Positions 13,834-22,710 of a stretch of DNA of 38,886 bases are shown in pieces. Each line of letters starts with the position of its first letter. The first letter of the stretch is position 1. A program made the translations under genes and the position numbers. The stretch comes from a virus, in the IMG/VR virus record IMGVR_UViG_3300027896_000100, positions 1 to 38,886 of that record; one strand, written 5' to 3'. The notes under the pieces were generated by a model. It was not told the DNA's origin, did no database searches, and saw nothing but the letters and a program-made list of their open reading frames with translations.

Positions 13834-14012
13834 TAGCATGCTCCTCTTTTCTTGCCAGGCATTGGCATAGGTGGTTTCTTTGGTTGTGTTTTTGCTTTAG
13901 CCATTTTATTGCCTCTAATTTTAAGTTTAATAAGTTGTTTTACCAACTCTCTTTTTTTCATGAAAGGTCTTTCTGGTTTATTCAATATTTCATATTGGTA
14001 ATTATAAAACAT
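13833..14012 (-). CDS. 59-aa basic late protein with a possible internal start
   Basis: The frame opens at ATG 14012, sharing a base with the terminase stop (TAATG). Residues 1-36 are basic and helical (KKRELVKQLIKLKIRGNK). An in-frame ATG at 13904 with an AGAGG site 9 nt upstream would give a separate 23-residue peptide, MAKAKTQPKKPPMPMPGKK plus a short Cys-ending tail. Proline/lysine-rich short peptides like this occur between packaging genes in other phages. Either the full form, the short form or both may be made. Function is unknown; nucleic-acid contact is plausible from its charge. Confidence 0.6.
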   Translation of the reverse strand: MFYNYQYEILNKPERPFMKKRELVKQLIKLKIRGNKMAKAKTQPKKPPMPMPGKKRGAC

Positions 14013-15409
14013 TATATAACACCTAGATTAGAAAGTGTATAATCAATAGGTTTGGAATCAAACCCACCAATGACTCTACTTCCACCTACTGCTCCTAAAA
14101 ATAAATACTGACAAGCATCAGCAACATGAGAATATCTGCCTTTATCAGGTTTGTCCATAAAACGTGCTTCACCAGATACTTGCATACGTTTATATTTATA
14201 ACCGCCTGCTAGTGCTTTTCTTAGAGTAACTGCTTTGCCAGTTATCAAGAAAGCAGTATTACCAGCAAAATCCAATCTTTGCATATAATCAGCTACTGCT
14301 TCACGTCTTATTGTAAAATCATTTGTATATGTTGGATATGCTTCAATACCTTGATTGTGTAAGATCATAAATGGTGTAGACTCATCAGTTTGAGCTCTTT
14401 GTTCACCAGCAGGATCAGCATATATCTCAACATTTAAAAATTTAGAATATGTTGTATTAAGTTTTTCTCTTAACAACTTACCAAATGACATAGCACCCAT
14501 ATCAAATGTGCACAACTCGTCAAATATTATCATTCTACCGCTTGCTGTAAGCTGACCAAATACAGCAGCTGGAGTTAATCCAAAATCTATACCAATATAT
14601 AATGGTAATTTTGGATCAGCAAAATATGGTTCTTGTGATGAATGAACATCATCTTTATATTCAGGGAATACTGGTTTGCCATCAGCTATGAATCCATAAT
14701 TACCATGAACATACACGTTAATCCACTCCTGATCTTTACCACCTTGCATATTAGTATAATAATTTGGTGGTAGGTTGCTTATATTTTCAGCCTTTCCGCT
14801 TGTTCCGCTTGGTTGCTTTGCAAGAAAATGATTATCTGGTAAACTCTCTTCAAAAAGTTTATACCACCAATGATCATTATCTGGAGGATTGGTATCCATT
14901 ATAATACCAAACCAAGTAGCTCCACCATCTCTCATGTTAGGATAACGACCTACACGACCTTGCAACATATCTATAATCTGCTTTGGTATTTCTCTTGCCT
15001 CATTTACCCAAGAACCAGTCAACTCAAGTGATAATAACTTTTTTACATCATTTGGTCTATCTAATGCTCTAAATAAAAATTCTGCCTGTACTGTGGTTCC
15101 ATCTGGCAATTTTTGTATATGAGTAAATTTTAGATTCATAGCAGAAAACACTCCAGTAGATACTGGTATCCAATCATGGAATGTCTGCATTGTTGTATCC
15201 AATAACTCTCTATATGTATTCCTTATAATTGCCCATCTTGTTCTCCTAATTCCATCAGGAGAAGGTTTTTGTTCATATGCTTTAATCATAAGATCAACAA
15301 CACAAGCAACTGATTTGCCACTACCAATTGGCCCCATCAATGCTCTAACAAATTTATTACTCTTGTGAAAACTTCTACAAGTCGGTGATGCTTTATAAAC
15401 TATATCCAT
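14012..15409 (-). CDS. terL: Terminase large subunit
   Basis: A 465-aa packaging motor. The ATPase Walker A is GPIGSGKS at residues 26-33. A Walker B-like segment ends in Glu (TGSWVNEAREIP, around residue 135). The RNase H-like nuclease half begins YIGIDFGLTPA and includes EIYADPAGEQRAQTDE, supplying the acidic residues that bind metal. It cuts concatemeric DNA and pumps it through the portal. The start overlaps the small subunit stop by one base (TAATG). Subtype (headful or site-specific) cannot be settled by eye. Confidence 0.92.
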   Translation of the reverse strand: MDIVYKASPTCRSFHKSNKFVRALMGPIGSGKSVACVVDLMIKAYEQKPSPDGIRRTRWAIIRNTYRELLDTTMQTFHDWIPVSTGVFSAMNLKFTHIQKLPDGTTVQAEFLFRALDRPNDVKKLLSLELTGSWVNEAREIPKQIIDMLQGRVGRYPNMRDGGATWFGIIMDTNPPDNDHWWYKLFEESLPDNHFLAKQPSGTSGKAENISNLPPNYYTNMQGGKDQEWINVYVHGNYGFIADGKPVFPEYKDDVHSSQEPYFADPKLPLYIGIDFGLTPAAVFGQLTASGRMIIFDELCTFDMGAMSFGKLLREKLNTTYSKFLNVEIYADPAGEQRAQTDESTPFMILHNQGIEAYPTYTNDFTIRREAVADYMQRLDFAGNTAFLITGKAVTLRKALAGGYKYKRMQVSGEARFMDKPDKGRYSHVADACQYLFLGAVGGSRVIGGFDSKPIDYTLSNLGVI

Positions 15410-15885
15410 TAATCCATTACCACTGTAAATGAGAAATTCTTGTTAGCCATGTTTAACTCAGAATCATCTACATTTAATGGAAACTTATCTGCAAAATGTT
15501 TAAGATATATTACCGCTGCTTGAGTACCGCCTGACCTATTGGTCATATTCTGGAATAATCTATCACAAGCAATTTTCTTTGCTTTTGTTCTACCACGTTT
15601 AAATGAAATATAGAACCATCTTAAATCATATTTTGCAGTTGTTATATCATCAATATCAAAACTATCATCCTCTGATTTCATCTTTTCCGCTGTATGCAAA
15701 TCATCCATTGTAAGTGCATAATAATCTAAAACTTCTGCCTCTGATAACCCAATGGCCAATTCTTCAACTTCTGCTAACATATGCAAATCGAAAAACACAA
15801 GAGAATCCTCATCACAATTCTCATAGATTCCTTTGTAACCATTGTATTTCTTGTTAGATTCTGTTCCTGTCTTTGGCAATGCCAT
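15409..15885 (-). CDS. Probable terminase small subunit
   Basis: A 158-aa protein, first gene of the late unit and coupled directly to the large terminase. It is helical, with LSEAEVLDYYALTMDDLHTAEKM resembling a helix-turn-helix DNA-recognition start. RWFYISFKRGRTKAKKIACDRLFQNM and QAAVIYLKHFADKFP then resemble the oligomerisation core of small terminases (the 'A...K.RA.A...L...A..G...M..FLL'-type pattern). It would recognise the packaging site and load the large subunit. The call rests on position and general pattern. A GTTATATAAC palindrome lies just upstream of the ATG. Confidence 0.68.
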   Translation of the reverse strand: MALPKTGTESNKKYNGYKGIYENCDEDSLVFFDLHMLAEVEELAIGLSEAEVLDYYALTMDDLHTAEKMKSEDDSFDIDDITTAKYDLRWFYISFKRGRTKAKKIACDRLFQNMTNRSGGTQAAVIYLKHFADKFPLNVDDSELNMANKNFSFTVVMD

Positions 15886-15953
15886 AATGTTATATAACCT
15901 AAGTTGTTGTTTTAATTAATAATTATCCTTAGATGTTTTAAAGGGTAAATATT

Positions 15954-15982
15954 TTTAATTGCTTATAAGTCTACTATATAAT
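15954..15982 (+). promoter_or_regulatory. Possible plus-strand promoter overlapping the late promoter
   Basis: TTTAAT, 17 bp, then a perfect TATAAT at 15977-15982. It would transcribe into the 28-A tract and the small ORF at 16065. It overlaps the late promoter on the opposite strand, so the two could exclude each other. The -35 is weak. Confidence 0.35.
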
Positions 15983-15996
15983 AGCTTGGAAGTAAA
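15968..15996 (-). promoter_or_regulatory. Putative late promoter
   Basis: On the minus strand, TTTACT (15996-15991), a 17-bp spacer and TAGACT (15973-15968). The same TTTACTT start and an AG just before the -10 are found in the plus-strand promoters at 16311 and 20730. It lies about 80 nt upstream of the terminase small subunit gene and would drive the whole late unit. The -10 is imperfect, so a phage-encoded activator may be needed. Confidence 0.5.
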
Positions 15997-16017
15997 GGAT
16001 TATTTATAGTGGTGAAG

Positions 16018-16049
<32 letters not shown>

Positions 16050-16064
16050 CAGGAGGACAGTCAC

Positions 16065-16202
16065 GTGACACTGAACCCTCTGAACCCCCTGGCCATGTGT
16101 AGAAATGCTAGGTGGCCGCTGAGGCAGGTGGAATGTCCAGGCAAATCAATAAGTTACAACAGCATTATAATATATAAGATGGCCAGATGTTGGTACATAT
16201 GA
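16065..16202 (+). CDS. Possible 45-aa ORF with strong ribosome site and GTG start
   Basis: GTG at 16065 is preceded at 8 nt by a perfect AGGAGG. The frame runs 45 codons to TGA, beginning MTLNPLNPLAMCRNARWP and containing VECPGKS and MARCWYI. It has three Cys and many Arg/Lys, suggesting a small basic, possibly metal-binding protein. The region is GC-richer than its surroundings and also has RNA-like structure, so a non-coding reading is a real alternative. The next ATG in frame (16095) has no ribosome site. Confidence 0.45.
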   Translation: MTLNPLNPLAMCRNARWPLRQVECPGKSISYNSIIIYKMARCWYI

Positions 16203-16242
16203 GGTTGCTGGGCAGATATTGCTTATGATGCCCACAGCACCT
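16202..16242 (+). other. Imperfect RNA hairpin in intergenic region
   Basis: Bases 16202-16214 and 16229-16242 can pair over about 12 base pairs with a one-base and a two-base bulge; the core is GGGCA/TGCCC, with a 14-nt loop. Together with the 10-bp palindrome GTCACGTGAC (16061-16069 region) and the tandem CTGAACCC repeats at 16071-16087, this makes 16050-16250 a candidate structured RNA or protein-binding region. Confidence 0.4.
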
Positions 16243-16310
16243 GAGAATAGTATATCATCTATATAGGAGTATGCTGGGTGAAACTATTTTAACTTAATTA
16301 AAATAAAACC

Positions 16311-16338
16311 TTTACTTCTGAATTAATACAAGTATGAT
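16311..16338 (+). promoter_or_regulatory. Putative promoter for the 16389-17458 unit
   Basis: TTTACT (16311-16316), 16 bp, TATGAT (16333-16338). It closely resembles the promoter at 20730 (shared TTTACTT and AG before the -10). A CCAGA-GACT-TCTGG hairpin (16349-16362) would fall at the very 5' end of the transcript and may stabilise it. The gene start is 50 nt downstream. Confidence 0.6.
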
Positions 16339-16388
16339 ACTATTCAAGCCAGAGACTTCTGGTGGTAAACTAAAACAAGGCAACTAAA

Positions 16389-16934
16389 ATGAACACACAA
16401 ACTAAAACTAAAGTAAATGGCAACCCAGAAGCCCACGCTGAAGCTGCTGATAAAGCAAATGCTAAGCGTGCTGAGCGTAAAGCAAGGATGGCTCAAGAAG
16501 AGCGTGAGCAAGCCAGAGCGGATGAGAATGTTAAACACCGTGAGCAAGCCAGAGCTGAACGTGCCAAAGCTGAAGCTGAAGCTGAGGCAAAAAAGAATGA
16601 GGCTGGTACTATCAAGGCTGAAGACAAAGCTGAGCTGATAGACTTAGTGAACCAACCTAGAACCAAAGCTGAGATCAAAGGTTGGTTGCTCTTCAAAGGT
16701 TATACTGCTAAGGTTGCTATGGCTATACTAGCTGAGTATATGCCAAAGGCTGAGAAGTCTGAGCGTGCTAAGTCACTAAGAGACCATCTGTGGGCTCATT
16801 GCTCAACTTCAATTATGACTGATGCAGATTTTGACTCACTGATGTCAACTGGTACACCTAATGAAGTTAAACATCGCACAGTCTTTAACAATGAACGTAT
16901 GATGTTCAATAAGATTCACCTGTCATATAAATAA
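16389..16934 (+). CDS. Charged Ala/Lys/Glu-rich protein of unknown function
   Basis: A 181-aa protein. Residues 1-75 form a long, continuous charged helix (repeats of A-E/K/R such as HAEAADKANAKRAERKARMA), probably a coiled coil. Residues 80-181 form a compact C-terminal domain (ELIDLVNQPRTKAEIKGWLLFKG, AKSLRDHLWAHCSTSIMTDAD, VKHRTVFNNERMMFNK). Codon composition is GC-richer than in the replication operon. It is the first main gene behind a good promoter, so strong early expression is likely. No family is recognised; DNA or host-protein binding is a guess. Confidence 0.72.
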   Translation: MNTQTKTKVNGNPEAHAEAADKANAKRAERKARMAQEEREQARADENVKHREQARAERAKAEAEAEAKKNEAGTIKAEDKAELIDLVNQPRTKAEIKGWLLFKGYTAKVAMAILAEYMPKAEKSERAKSLRDHLWAHCSTSIMTDADFDSLMSTGTPNEVKHRTVFNNERMMFNKIHLSYK

Positions 16935-17546: not shown

Positions 17547-17945
17547 CTATTCTATATTTTCTCGGTATATATCCGAGTCTAGGATCAAACCGATAGACTC
17601 ATCTAGTCTTACCCAAACCTTGCCACCTTTTACCACACTCCCACGATATATTAACAATTGGTCAACTAGACTATCATCTGTCCACAAACCGCTCTTGGTA
17701 ATGCTATCTAAGAGTGGCTTCATATAATTGTCTATATCTCGCTTGCGATTGTCTGGTGGATACAGTATCACAGTCATTGATACCTGCAGGTCAATAGTCA
17801 TTGGACCAACACAATCCATTATTGACTTAATAGTATCTGCTGTATATGCATTACCAGCCTTGCCTATAAACACTCCATTCCTAGTTTTGGTATAATAACT
17901 GTTTATTGTAGGTGGAAATTTGGTGTAGAACTCTATTCTGTTCAT
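17547..17945 (-). CDS. rusA: RusA-family Holliday junction resolvase
   Basis: A 132-aa endonuclease that cuts four-way junctions, useful for resolving branched replication or recombination DNA before packaging. The core PPDNRKRDIDNYMKPLLDSI and GLWTDDSLVDQL segment gives the family's acidic residues at Asp70, Asp72 and Asp91 with Lys76, at the same numbers as in E. coli RusA. The N-terminal FPPTINSYY strand is also typical. It lies downstream of the primase/helicase gene, separated by the candidate origin, and before a terminator. Confidence 0.9.
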   Translation of the reverse strand: MNRIEFYTKFPPTINSYYTKTRNGVFIGKAGNAYTADTIKSIMDCVGPMTIDLQVSMTVILYPPDNRKRDIDNYMKPLLDSITKSGLWTDDSLVDQLLIYRGSVVKGGKVWVRLDESIGLILDSDIYRENIE

Positions 17946-17973
17946 AATCAGCCTTTTATTTGTACAGCGGTAA

Positions 17974-18238
17974 TAAGGGAATTATAAGGGAATTTTTTTC
18001 CCTATGCTAAGGGTCTGTTTTATTAGTCTTTTTTTTATATATAGAGTAAATATATATATAAATAAAAGATGAAATTTTCGGAATAAGAATAAGTCTTATT
18101 TAGATTTATTGGAGGCTCACACCGGTTTTTTCCCTTAGAAAAAAATCATCGAAATTCCACTTTTTTCCCTTATATTTCAGATACTTATAAAGGGAATTTA
18201 TTTTCCCTTCACTTTCCCTCGTTTCCCTTAGAGGGAAA
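17974..18238. other. Candidate replication origin: AGGGAA/TTCCCT iteron cluster with AT-rich block
   Basis: This gene-free stretch between RusA and the primase/helicase gene (17946-18257) contains eleven AGGG(AA)/(TT)CCCT elements in both orientations. They begin near 17974, 17985 (tandem TAAGGGAATT, 11-bp step), 17998, 18008, 18130, 18165, 18189, 18203, 18214, 18223 and 18232. The last two form a perfect TTTCCCT-TAG-AGGGAAA dyad. Between the two groups lies a nearly pure A/T block (about 18026-18070). Clustered iterons beside an AT-rich segment and an initiator-type gene are the hallmarks of a phage origin. Confidence 0.65.
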
Positions 18239-18257
18239 ATCAATGATATTTAATACA

Positions 18258-20624
18258 CTATTTAAACTTAAAATTATCCTTATAACTATCTAATATCCAT
18301 TGCTGTATCTTAAAACAATCTAGTGGGTCATAGGAGCGTGTTTTACCTTTATATGGCTTATTGGTAGCGGTATATGCTTCTTTGATTGTTATATAGCCCA
18401 TATTGAGCATATATTGTAATATATTATCTAGTCCATCAATTGGACTTCTAATAGTCTTTTGAAATACTAGCTTTTTGCTTTTCCTAAGTGATCTGGTAAA
18501 CAGCTTATAAGGTATAAGTTGGTGTTCAATCTCTTGTGGACTTCTGGACATTGCAAAATCAGTAAAACCTCCAGACAATATTTTATATATGAATGGCACT
18601 ATTACTTCATAAGTAACATCTTCAAATGCATTAGAGAAGTCTGAACCGCTGAATACCTGCTCTATGCCAGCCAATTCGTATGCAGTGATACGTTTAGCCC
18701 ATTCCCACTCAGAACCACCTATAAGCAGTCTATCATCCTTGTGAAAATTTGATTTGTTAATGACAGTGGCAATAGCGGCAAACTTCATAGTTTTCATATG
18801 CATTCTTGAAGCCATTACACCCTTTGTAGTACCATCATTATTATTTTCTACATCAGTACAGAATTTGCTATGAGCTCTTTTTTCATTCATATCCTCAAAA
18901 CCAAACTGCCAGACTTTACCAACACAATTATCTTCGCTTTGTATGCTAGCGCATTTAACCACCAACTTTCTGAGAATGGACATTAAATCATCATCAATAA
19001 ATTCTCTGACATTCTCATTTTCATATGGTTTCTTACCAATAATTCTAAATACACTCTGCCTAGGCAATAAGCCATTATCTAATGAATTTGAATCTTTAAG
19101 AGCATCCAATAATGTCTCAGGTGTAGCTTCATTAATAATAGACAATGCAGGATTCCTAATAGCAGGGATTCCATCTTCTTTTCTACTATATGCTTCACTT
19201 GAACTAATATCTCTTTCACCACTTGTACCATACAAACCTAGAAGTACTCTAGTTAAACCAGATTGATCACCAGCACTAGATTGCATTAATATACCTGCTT
19301 CTGTAAATATACATACCTGTGACCTAGCAGATACCAAACTATCAATCAAACCCTTTGGTCCAGTGAATCGACTATTCCCAATAAATGAACTACCTTGACC
19401 AATATCATTCAACTCTAACAATATCCTTCTTATTATCTTACCAATTGAATCTTTTCCTTTACCAGTCCCCATTAACAAAGTCAAATAAACATTTAATCCA
19501 GTTCTACTAACATTAAATTTTCTACCAGCAATACCAGCCACCAAACCTACAGCAGTGACAATAGCTACTTCCCTATATTGGTAGGTTTGCATTTCATAAA
19601 TGTTTTGACAAAGTCTACCAAACAACCCAGGAGGCCAAGGAATGCCATCTGCATCGCTAGAAACACTATCACTATGATTTGTTTTAAAATCATTAATATT
19701 AATGTTATTACTACCATTACTATCCACAAGTTCATCACGACACCTGACAATAGCCCCATCGACCATTCTTTCAATATCTTCATAATATTTTTGCCATTGT
19801 TCATCTCTTTTAATCTCAGGACAGTTTTTCATAAATGATTGGATAGAGACAATTGCATTTCTCTTTTTCAATCCATCTTTGACAACACCCCAACCATATT
19901 CCCTTATTGTATCCCATAATCCACTACCAGACTTCCATTCAATGACTTTATTAACCATATCATCTAATGAGCGGTAATCACTCTTTTCTTTATCTGTATT
20001 ATCATTGGCAGAATTATCACCCTCATTCTCTATTTCCTTAAATACAACATCTAAACTATTTCCTTCATAATAACTGTGGAATTCAGCTTTATCAATAAGT
20101 TCAGAGCCACCAAAAAACCATATCCTGACAGGAGAATGATTTTCACTAGCATAAGCTATATTTGTATGTTCAATATTTAATCTATCTACTATATCTTTTG
20201 TTGTAGCGTGTAAGTATTTAATTGGACATCCATCATAACATTCAATAACAGCACGCCATTTATTCTTTCCACCAATTCCATTTGACCAACTTGTATATAC
20301 AAAATGATTTATGCCCAATTGTAATAGTGAATTGTGAACCCAATTTGCACTTATCAATCCATTATCATCATTAGGCTCATCACCATCAATAATAATCATT
20401 CCATATTTAGCAGTACTAAGTAAATCATTTTTAGTTCGTTTGCTACGATTATCAACCCAATTCCAATCTCCAGTAGCAACAAAATAAGGTTGTGCTAATT
20501 TATTCTTTATTATACCACTTTTACAAGCAGATTCTATGTAATTACCAAAATCACTAAACTGTTCACACTCATTTAGTTCAATCCATTCACTTTTTGCATT
20601 TTTACCAATGCCAATTTTTAACAT
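18258..20624 (-). CDS. Primase-polymerase/helicase-type replication protein (DUF3987-like)
   Basis: The protein is 788 aa from ATG 20624, chosen because GGAGG lies 10 nt upstream inside the longer frame from 20654. N-terminal ~200 residues: YGMIIIDGDEPND gives a D-x-D pair, with KNKWRAVIE and SPVRIWFFGG, as in archaeo-eukaryotic (AEP) primases. Middle/C-terminal: YLTLLMGTGKGKDSIGKII is a P-loop-like motif in a DUF3987-type helicase module, with CIFTEAGILMQ and NPALSIINEATPE following. It would prime or unwind DNA and may recognise the adjacent iterons. It is divergent from the replication operon. The polymerase function of the AEP part is inferred. Confidence 0.72.
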   Translation of the reverse strand: MLKIGIGKNAKSEWIELNECEQFSDFGNYIESACKSGIIKNKLAQPYFVATGDWNWVDNRSKRTKNDLLSTAKYGMIIIDGDEPNDDNGLISANWVHNSLLQLGINHFVYTSWSNGIGGKNKWRAVIECYDGCPIKYLHATTKDIVDRLNIEHTNIAYASENHSPVRIWFFGGSELIDKAEFHSYYEGNSLDVVFKEIENEGDNSANDNTDKEKSDYRSLDDMVNKVIEWKSGSGLWDTIREYGWGVVKDGLKKRNAIVSIQSFMKNCPEIKRDEQWQKYYEDIERMVDGAIVRCRDELVDSNGSNNININDFKTNHSDSVSSDADGIPWPPGLFGRLCQNIYEMQTYQYREVAIVTAVGLVAGIAGRKFNVSRTGLNVYLTLLMGTGKGKDSIGKIIRRILLELNDIGQGSSFIGNSRFTGPKGLIDSLVSARSQVCIFTEAGILMQSSAGDQSGLTRVLLGLYGTSGERDISSSEAYSRKEDGIPAIRNPALSIINEATPETLLDALKDSNSLDNGLLPRQSVFRIIGKKPYENENVREFIDDDLMSILRKLVVKCASIQSEDNCVGKVWQFGFEDMNEKRAHSKFCTDVENNNDGTTKGVMASRMHMKTMKFAAIATVINKSNFHKDDRLLIGGSEWEWAKRITAYELAGIEQVFSGSDFSNAFEDVTYEVIVPFIYKILSGGFTDFAMSRSPQEIEHQLIPYKLFTRSLRKSKKLVFQKTIRSPIDGLDNILQYMLNMGYITIKEAYTATNKPYKGKTRSYDPLDCFKIQQWILDSYKDNFKFK

Positions 20625-20678
20625 ATTATAACATCCTCCACAGGTTAAACCCATATTAATATGAATATAGGGTCTTAT

Positions 20679-21580: not shown

Positions 21581-22273
21581 ATGGCAATTAAATTAACATC
21601 AACTCATAAACAATCAGAGTATGTAAAAATACTTGTTTTTGGGGATTCAGGAACTGGCAAAACTAAACTTATTGGCACAGCTCCAAAACCTTTAATAATA
21701 TCAACTGAAAGTGGACTGCTATCACTAGCAGATATTGATATTCCAGTTATAACTGCGAAATCACTTGAAGATATTTATGAAATTTATGAATATATAAATT
21801 CACCTGATGGAAGTGAATATGAAACAATATGTTTAGACTCTATAACTGACCTAGCAGAAAGCATGTTAACTAATAATAAGGCTGGTACCAAAGATGGTAG
21901 AGCAGCTTATGGAAAGTTAAATGATGATATTGCAGATGTTATAAGAGCGTTTAGAGATATTGAAAATAAACATGTATATATGACTGCTAAGCAGGCACGT
22001 ATTGAAGATTATAATACTGGTATATGTAAGTACAAACCTATGTTACCAGGAAGAACATTGACTCAACAAATCTGTTATTGGTTTGATGAAGTTTTGTGTC
22101 TTAGAATAGGTGAAGATGATGATGGTGAACAATTCCGCTATCTACAATCCCAACCTAGTATTACCCATGAGGCAAAAGATAGATCAGGAAAACTAGATGA
22201 TCCTGAATTACCTGATTTGGCTCACATTTTCAACAAAGTTACACTAAAATCTAACAAAACAAAGGAAAATTAA
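21581..22273 (+). CDS. Sak4-like RecA-fold ATPase (recombination/annealing)
   Basis: A 230-aa protein of the AAA_24 / Sak4 phage nucleotide-binding group. Walker A is GDSGTGKT at residues 21-28, and the Walker B region is TICLDSITDL. Later, HVYMTAKQARIED and LPGRTLTQQICYWFDEVLCLRI are typical. Sak4 proteins are reduced RecA/RadA-type ATPases that promote single-strand annealing and recombination with a phage SSB. Here the DUF669 SSB gene follows after 2 nt, the classic pairing. It likely works in recombination-dependent replication. Confidence 0.87.
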   Translation: MAIKLTSTHKQSEYVKILVFGDSGTGKTKLIGTAPKPLIISTESGLLSLADIDIPVITAKSLEDIYEIYEYINSPDGSEYETICLDSITDLAESMLTNNKAGTKDGRAAYGKLNDDIADVIRAFRDIENKHVYMTAKQARIEDYNTGICKYKPMLPGRTLTQQICYWFDEVLCLRIGEDDDGEQFRYLQSQPSITHEAKDRSGKLDDPELPDLAHIFNKVTLKSNKTKEN

Positions 22274-22275
22274 TT

Positions 22276-22710
22276 ATGGCTATGTTACCAAAATCATTCA
22301 ATGACGCAGATATTTCAGATGATATCATTCCAGCAGGACAATATTTAGCTGAAATTACCAAATCAGAGATGAAAGATACAAAAAGCGGTACTGGAAAATA
22401 TCTTTCAGTTGGTTTTAAGTTACTAGATGGTCCAGGTAAAGGTTCAATGGTTTATACAAATTTAAATCTTGTTAATGATAATGATGTAGCAGTTCAAATT
22501 GCTAATCAAACATTAGCAAAAATTTGTGCTGCTGTTGGTAAGGACTATAAGAAAATCACTGATAGTTCTGAATTACATGCAATTCCATTATCTATCAAAT
22601 TAACTGTACGTCCTCCAGATGATGCATTCCCTGGAAATGAAATAAAAGGATATAAGTCAGCTGGTTCTAAAACACCATCTGATGGAATTAAAAAGAACCC
22701 ATTTAAATAA
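22276..22710 (+). CDS. Single-stranded DNA-binding protein (DUF669 type)
   Basis: A 144-aa protein: IIPAGQYLAEITKSEMKDTKSGTGKYLSVGFKLLDGP, then MVYTNLNLVN and a long C-terminal region ending KKNPFK. This is the DUF669 OB-fold layout of phage SSBs that are encoded beside Sak4. The role is to coat single-stranded DNA during replication and annealing and to stimulate the partner ATPase. It is separated from the Sak4 gene by 2 nt and followed by a strong terminator hairpin, so the pair may be the main product of this part of the operon. Confidence 0.87.
   Translation: MAMLPKSFNDADISDDIIPAGQYLAEITKSEMKDTKSGTGKYLSVGFKLLDGPGKGSMVYTNLNLVNDNDVAVQIANQTLAKICAAVGKDYKKITDSSELHAIPLSIKLTVRPPDDAFPGNEIKGYKSAGSKTPSDGIKKNPFK

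Follow-up and report, generated by a model that had tools for sequence, protein, structure and literature searches.

What is the 312-bp gap beside the primase-helicase gene of this phage, and which protein reads the short repeats that fill it on both strands? To our knowledge, where replication begins has not been established for most lytic phages. The window, i.e. the whole 38,886-nt stretch of viral DNA analysed here (IMG/VR record IMGVR_UViG_3300027896_000100), carries a 126-bp direct terminal repeat (positions 9-134 equal the last 126 bases, with 8 stray bases in front). Because this repeat stands at both ends, the genome is probably complete, at about 38.75 kb, and the DNA behind the assembly circular or terminally redundant. 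It is that of a tailed phage, with genes for portal, capsid, scaffold, terminase, tail, DNA polymerase and ligase, and also encodes a thymidylate synthase, a Cas4-type exonuclease, Sak4 and a DUF669 SSB. A DNA search of GenBank phages with the replication region gave no matches, nor did protein searches of plasmids and of bacterial genomes. We consider it likely that the gap is an iteron-type origin, bound, melted and primed by the adjoining primase-helicase (Table 1).

Table 1. Features of the proposed origin and of the replication genes in the window
Feature	Position	Strand	Remarks
RusA-like Holliday junction resolvase	17547..17945	-	next gene after the proposed origin; same neighbour in VpKK5 and L204
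Proposed replication origin, noncoding gap between rusA and primase-helicase gene	17946..18257	.	no ORF of at least 60 aa; strongest both-strand repeat cluster; conserved in L002 and L003
Two AGGGAA repeats (17976, 17987), 11-bp tandem step	17973..17994	+	ATAAGGGAATT twice
Dyad AGGGAATTTTTTTCCCT, repeats 17987+ and 17998-	17987..18003	.	17998 copy absent in L002
A/T-rich core, proposed melting region	18012..18110	.	densest at 18027-18069; almost unchanged in L002 and L003
Iteron AGGGAA (AAGGGAA)	18130..18135	-	
Iteron AGGGAA (AAGGGAA)	18165..18170	-	
Dense right-hand group, AGGGAA at 18191+, 18203-, 18214-, 18223-, 18232+	18190..18237	.	steps of 9-12 bp
Dyad TTTCCCTTAGAGGGAAA within right-hand group	18221..18237	.	
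DUF3987-type replication protein, 798 aa (phrog_3022 'DNA primase'), proposed initiator	18258..20654	-	PF13148 E 1.7e-6; phrog_3022 E 1.2e-62
Sak4-like ATPase, replication/recombination partner	21581..22273	+	
DUF669 ssDNA-binding protein, replication/recombination partner	22276..22710	+	
Phage DNA polymerase, 929 aa	30014..32803	+	likely extends primers made at the origin; phrog_405 E 1.1e-227

Ten AGGGAA sites are clustered around an A/T-rich core

We observed ten exact AGGGAA/TTCCCT sites in the gap, on both strands (17976+, 17987+, 17998-, 18130-, 18165-, 18191+, 18203-, 18214-, 18223- and 18232+). Seven of them extend to AAGGGAA, a heptamer found only eight times in the whole genome. The original prediction for this locus had counted eleven elements in both orientations: the array is there, but for the eleventh element the best candidate is AAGGGT at 18009, which has one mismatch. 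The 11-bp tandem step, the dyads and the A/T block flanked by repeats, which it had also described, are all present at the positions of Table 1. Two repeat groups, 17976-18003 and 18130-18237, lie on either side of the A/T core, and the core itself holds a 94% inverted repeat with arms at 18027-18043 and 18053-18069. Repeat copies of the same orientation mostly follow each other at 7-12 bp, roughly one helical turn, and some 20 bp separate the array from the stop codon of the 798-aa gene.

Motif frequency, which had been put forward as a check, is ordinary genome-wide (17 AGGGAA observed vs 14.5 expected, 7 of them outside the gap), yet dinucleotide shuffles of the gap gave a mean of 0.66 sites and a maximum of 5 (5000 shuffles) against the 10 observed. 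The signal is thus the clustering. Accordingly, the gap was the top both-strand cluster in a genome-wide scan, with a score of 16.1 and a runner-up at 6.9. To call it the only gene-free stretch of its kind was too strong, as there are other gaps of at least 300 bp, for example 15886-16388, but these do not carry such an array. In that example, a run of more than 20 A (16019-16045) is followed by about 340 noncoding bases (16046-16388) and then by a 181-aa Ala/Glu/Lys-rich ORF (16389-16934) with no Pfam or PHROG family match.

The gap could be aligned with those of two close relatives, L002 (96% primase identity) and L003. In this three-sequence alignment, 58 of 60 repeat columns were invariant, compared with 197 of 244 other gap columns, and each of the two relatives is without one repeat copy. 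The cumulative GC-skew minimum, expected at about 18.1 kb, falls at about 20.7-20.8 kb, where gene direction switches. Since the skew tracks gene orientation (its sign matches the coding strand in 44 of 50 genes), it speaks neither for nor against an origin at 18.1 kb and was dropped as origin evidence.

The adjoining protein combines an MCM-like helicase with a predicted winged helix

The product of the adjoining gene measures 798 aa from the first ATG, the 788 aa announced previously corresponding to a start at Met11. It had been described as AEP/DUF3987-type. The DUF3987 assignment holds, with a PF13148 match above cut-off, while an AEP-type primase domain is found in relatives and is not demonstrable by sequence in the window protein. 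An AAA+ helicase region (about 338-690), with a Walker A motif GTGKGK at about 396-401, precedes a predicted C-terminal winged helix (about 700-798). The structure model is reliable only from about residue 338 and its AAA+ core resembles MCM; its N-terminal half is poor (pLDDT below 50 for residues 1-231), so that the primase domain was judged from relatives. The N-terminal 330 residues showed no known match and no known primase fold, NrS-1-type Prim-Pol and HBD domains were not found in the N-terminal half, and Pfam and PHROGs gave no TOPRIM family match for the protein. A DxD at 90/92 aligns with the catalytic acidic pair and is only suggestive.

The model of the homologue from Vibrio phage VpKK5 (mean pLDDT 85) consists of an NrS-1-like primase-polymerase, then an MCM-like helicase, then a C-terminal winged helix, and profile searches agree with an NrS-1-like primase-polymerase domain in the relatives. 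HBD (PF22763) is present in 28 of 31 aligned proteins, the window protein being without it. The predicted C-terminal winged-helix pattern is common to the window protein and its array-bearing relatives. Separately, comparison of locus L204 (2955-5195) with the window gene (18258-20654) revealed close helicase domains and unlike N-terminal (primase) domains, an apparent domain swap in a phage replication protein.

Arrays recur beside homologous genes in distant relatives

The original prediction had advised looking for the motif beside homologues of the protein in related phages, and the outcome was positive. VpKK5 has the gene order of the window (primase-helicase, gap, RusA-like gene), and its gap contains nine copies of AGGGAAA, nearly the same motif, of ten in the 56.6-kb genome; identity between the two primases is only about 20-28%. 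When viral contigs were scanned for three AGGGAAA in a row, most matches were unrelated repeats, coding or of low complexity, and VpKK5 was the only match with the primase beside the array among those checked. Other relatives carry different motifs in the same gap 3′ to the primase gene: GGGGATA in Variovorax VPv64 and L172, GGGGAAA in L195, ACCGAAAAC in Achromobacter phiAxp-1, TTCTAATG in Sphingomonas Birtae, GTAGTAT in Eidolon, GGTTAAAA and GGTTAACA in L165 and L183, CATTAAC in L190 and TGCGGAG in L202. In the open-access literature, the genome papers of phiAxp-1 and VpKK5 make no mention of an origin or of iterons, and a description elsewhere is possible.

Such arrays occupy this gap more often than position predicts. 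Of 45 non-redundant loci, 12 had a both-strand array in the immediate 3′ gap, where position alone predicts 1.5, but this set includes the discovery case and some loci inspected first; the fairer figure is that for IMG/VR loci fetched by protein similarity only, with arrays in 6 of 24 (0.79 expected, P about 6e-5). Similarly, noncoding 3′ gaps carried arrays in 10 of 21 cases vs 8 of 85 for other noncoding gaps. At the scan threshold, which would miss degenerate repeats, the immediate 3′ gap was without an array in 33 of the 45 relatives. No array was seen anywhere in the fetched locus for 18 of the 45, among them VA-RY-3 and Ss1, whose arrays are in other parts of the genome. VA-RY-3, Ss1, FtMidnight, Seurat and IME_AB3 all have their array at some distance from the 3′ gap; a physical link between gene and array is therefore not obligatory. 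These absences and displacements count against the gap as an origin read by its neighbouring gene product.

Further arrays were noted. Escherichia phage Seurat, which is tractable in the laboratory, has 12 ATAGGG on both strands in the gap upstream of its primase operon (L141:1640-1940), a candidate origin. In a Septimatrevirus-like branch of the same primase family (L008:6300-6800, L173, L174 and L138:2240-2600), A/T-rich both-strand arrays with the motifs AATAGTAA, GATATAA, TATGATAA and AATAGTAT sit 1-2 kb 3′ to the gene or 5′ to its operon. A both-strand ATAGGGATAT/AGGGAA array is common to four AT-rich viral contigs (L087:10087-10440, L095:2191-2560, L120:4640-5000 and L121:275-650), and is perhaps another origin or regulatory type. 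In the first three contigs the array extends over the beginning of a conserved open frame (about 313 aa), and no DUF3987 primase was found in the vicinity.

Related motifs accompany the helicase and winged-helix part within the window's clade

A tree built on the helicase and winged-helix region paired the window and L204 (97/90) and joined this pair to Vibrio phage VA-RY-3 and Cronobacter phage Ss1 (100/100). All four members have one array each, with a related G-rich/A-rich motif: AAGGGAA directly 3′ to the primase-helicase gene in the window, GGGGAA after rusA in L204, AGGATAAA in VA-RY-3 (all 6 copies of the genome lie in the gap after 6781) and AGGGGAT in Ss1 (all 4 lie in the gap after 41929). 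Judged from these sequences, motif type tracks the protein even where the position of the array moves. The helicase/C-terminal part may well be the reader of the repeats, because L204 shares it with the window despite a different N-terminal domain.

The same data bear on a reading in which the gap is an origin but its repeats are bound by another protein (a small DNA-binding protein, SSB or a host factor), the primase-helicase being recruited secondarily. Most relatives encode a small HTH-like protein just 5′ to the primase, the arrays of VA-RY-3 and Ss1 are away from the primase gene, and the window and L204 proteins, alike in helicase and C-terminus, have unlike N-termini. However, no obvious small HTH gene adjoins the window primase, related motifs persist with the helicase/winged-helix part within the clade, and known systems of such layout use the helicase's own C-terminal domain (PMC7581432). 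We thus regard a separate reader as unlikely.

An operator, a folded strand or another site explains the repeats less well

It is improbable that the repeats are an operator array by which a phage regulator controls the rusA and primase transcription units, with no role as an origin. The gap does separate two same-strand genes, with one sigma-70-like site on that strand (18010-17981), and both-strand operator arrays are known in phages. Yet promoter-like sites are not in excess (5 vs 6.6 in shuffles), operators are usually smaller than an array of ten sites that spans 260 bp around an A/T core, and the array recurs with the replication gene across unrelated genome layouts. Also, none of the window proteins scanned was recognised as an integrase, a repressor or another product of a lysogeny gene.

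The strand folds better than its shuffles (z -3.6), and the pRN1 origin is a stem-loop located 3′ to a primase-helicase gene (PMC4234260), which would fit a functional element consisting of a folded single strand (a pRN1-like large stem-loop origin, or RNA) with the repeats merely as its stems. Repeats on both strands nevertheless yield stems automatically, and other lineages retain short spaced repeats, not one long stem. In the three-sequence alignment only 1 of 87 pairs was compensated and the covariation term was positive, i.e. unfavourable. With no covariation and no Rfam match, we rejected this reading as very unlikely. Finally, a packaging, partition or recombination site, or an accident of composition, is extremely unlikely: the array adjoins rusA, which acts on recombination intermediates, but the terminase genes (14012-15885) are more than 2 kb off, no partition genes were recognised among the window proteins scanned, and chance is excluded by the shuffles, by recurrence beside homologues and by conservation.

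The layout resembles that of satellite origins

The locus had been presented as an undescribed type of origin. The layout is not new in principle, SaPI and PICI origins sharing it (PMC6092414, PMC7581432). As summarised in PMC7581432, SaPI Rep binds short iterons directly downstream of its own gene with its C-terminal domain. In PICI origins, which support plasmid replication, two iteron sets flank an A/T-rich region 3′ to rep (pri-rep) (PMC6092414). This layout was reported as unique to PICI satellites (PMC6092414), and the window array appears to be such a layout outside PICIs. In both cases the origin, a proposed one in the window, is immediately 3′ to the gene of a known or putative initiator helicase (sometimes fused to a primase in SaPI/PICI), two repeat groups surround an A/T-rich region, and the repeats vary between lineages while the layout is kept. 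SaPIs and PICIs are satellites, whereas the window is the genome of a tailed phage that brings DNA polymerase, ligase and recombination genes of its own; moreover, its helicase is DUF3987/MCM-like and its repeats are on both strands within each group. The marks of a satellite island (integrase, AlpA/Stl-type regulator, helper phage dependence) do not apply to the window. As it encodes portal, capsid, terminase and tail genes and a DNA polymerase, with no integrase recognised, it was not filed as a PICI.

Similarly, the C-terminal domain of the SCCmec helicase Cch2 binds 5-nt AAGTG iterons directly downstream of the helicase gene (PMC7581432), the place where the window has its own short iterons. 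Unlike the window, Cch2 has only three iterons, a helicase of D5/Primase_Cterm type and no fused primase. As summarised in PMC4234260, the P4 alpha protein is a multifunctional primase-helicase whose winged-helix domain binds origin repeats, to this extent like the system proposed for the window; it has a TOPRIM primase and belongs to a satellite phage, whereas the window relatives are of AEP type. The NrS-1 primase-polymerase (PMC8718748; PDB 6a9w) has its primase-polymerase and HBD in common with relatives of the window protein (E about 1e-38) and is not matched by the N-terminus of the window protein itself. Its 8-nt site TTTGGTTA is a priming site (PMC8718748). The origin of pRN1 ORF904, a 100-nt stem-loop explicitly without iterons (PMC4234260), lies, like the one proposed for the window, just downstream of a primase-helicase gene (AEP in pRN1) whose product ends in a winged helix (a predicted one in the window); the window, with iterons and an unfavourable covariation term, does not fit a stem-loop origin of this type.

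Proposed mechanism and significance

For the gap as an iteron-type origin of the primase-helicase, we infer sequence-specific binding by the 798-aa protein, melting, priming and fork direction, on the model of SaPI Rep, Cch2 (PMC7581432) and PICI origins (PMC6092414). The primase-helicase would bind the AGGGAA repeats via its C-terminal winged-helix domain and would form one ring, or two, on the two groups of repeats. Once assembled, it would melt the A/T-rich core between them, load itself as helicase and prime both strands; the phage polymerase, SSB (DUF669) and the Sak4/exonuclease module would then continue replication.

A wider reading, to which we give an even chance, is that one self-loading initiator, a protein with primase-polymerase, MCM-like helicase and winged-helix parts, is common to a large and taxonomically mixed set of tailed phages (Queuovirinae, VA-RY-3/Ss1-like podoviruses, Sphingomonas, Variovorax and Achromobacter phages and uncultured ones) and goes with a cognate origin of short iterons. 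Between lineages the motif would diversify together with the recognition domain, and origins would be predictable from sequence alone.

If true, this would provide predicted origins for many phages at once and would show that tailed phages with a full set of replication genes also have a layout reported as unique to PICIs (PMC6092414). It would also supply natural pairs of recognition domain and iteron (AGGGAA, GGGGATA, ACCGAAAAC, GGTTAACA, TGCGGAG and others) for testing origin specificity directly, and would give DUF3987 proteins a likely role as self-loading, MCM-like initiator helicases.
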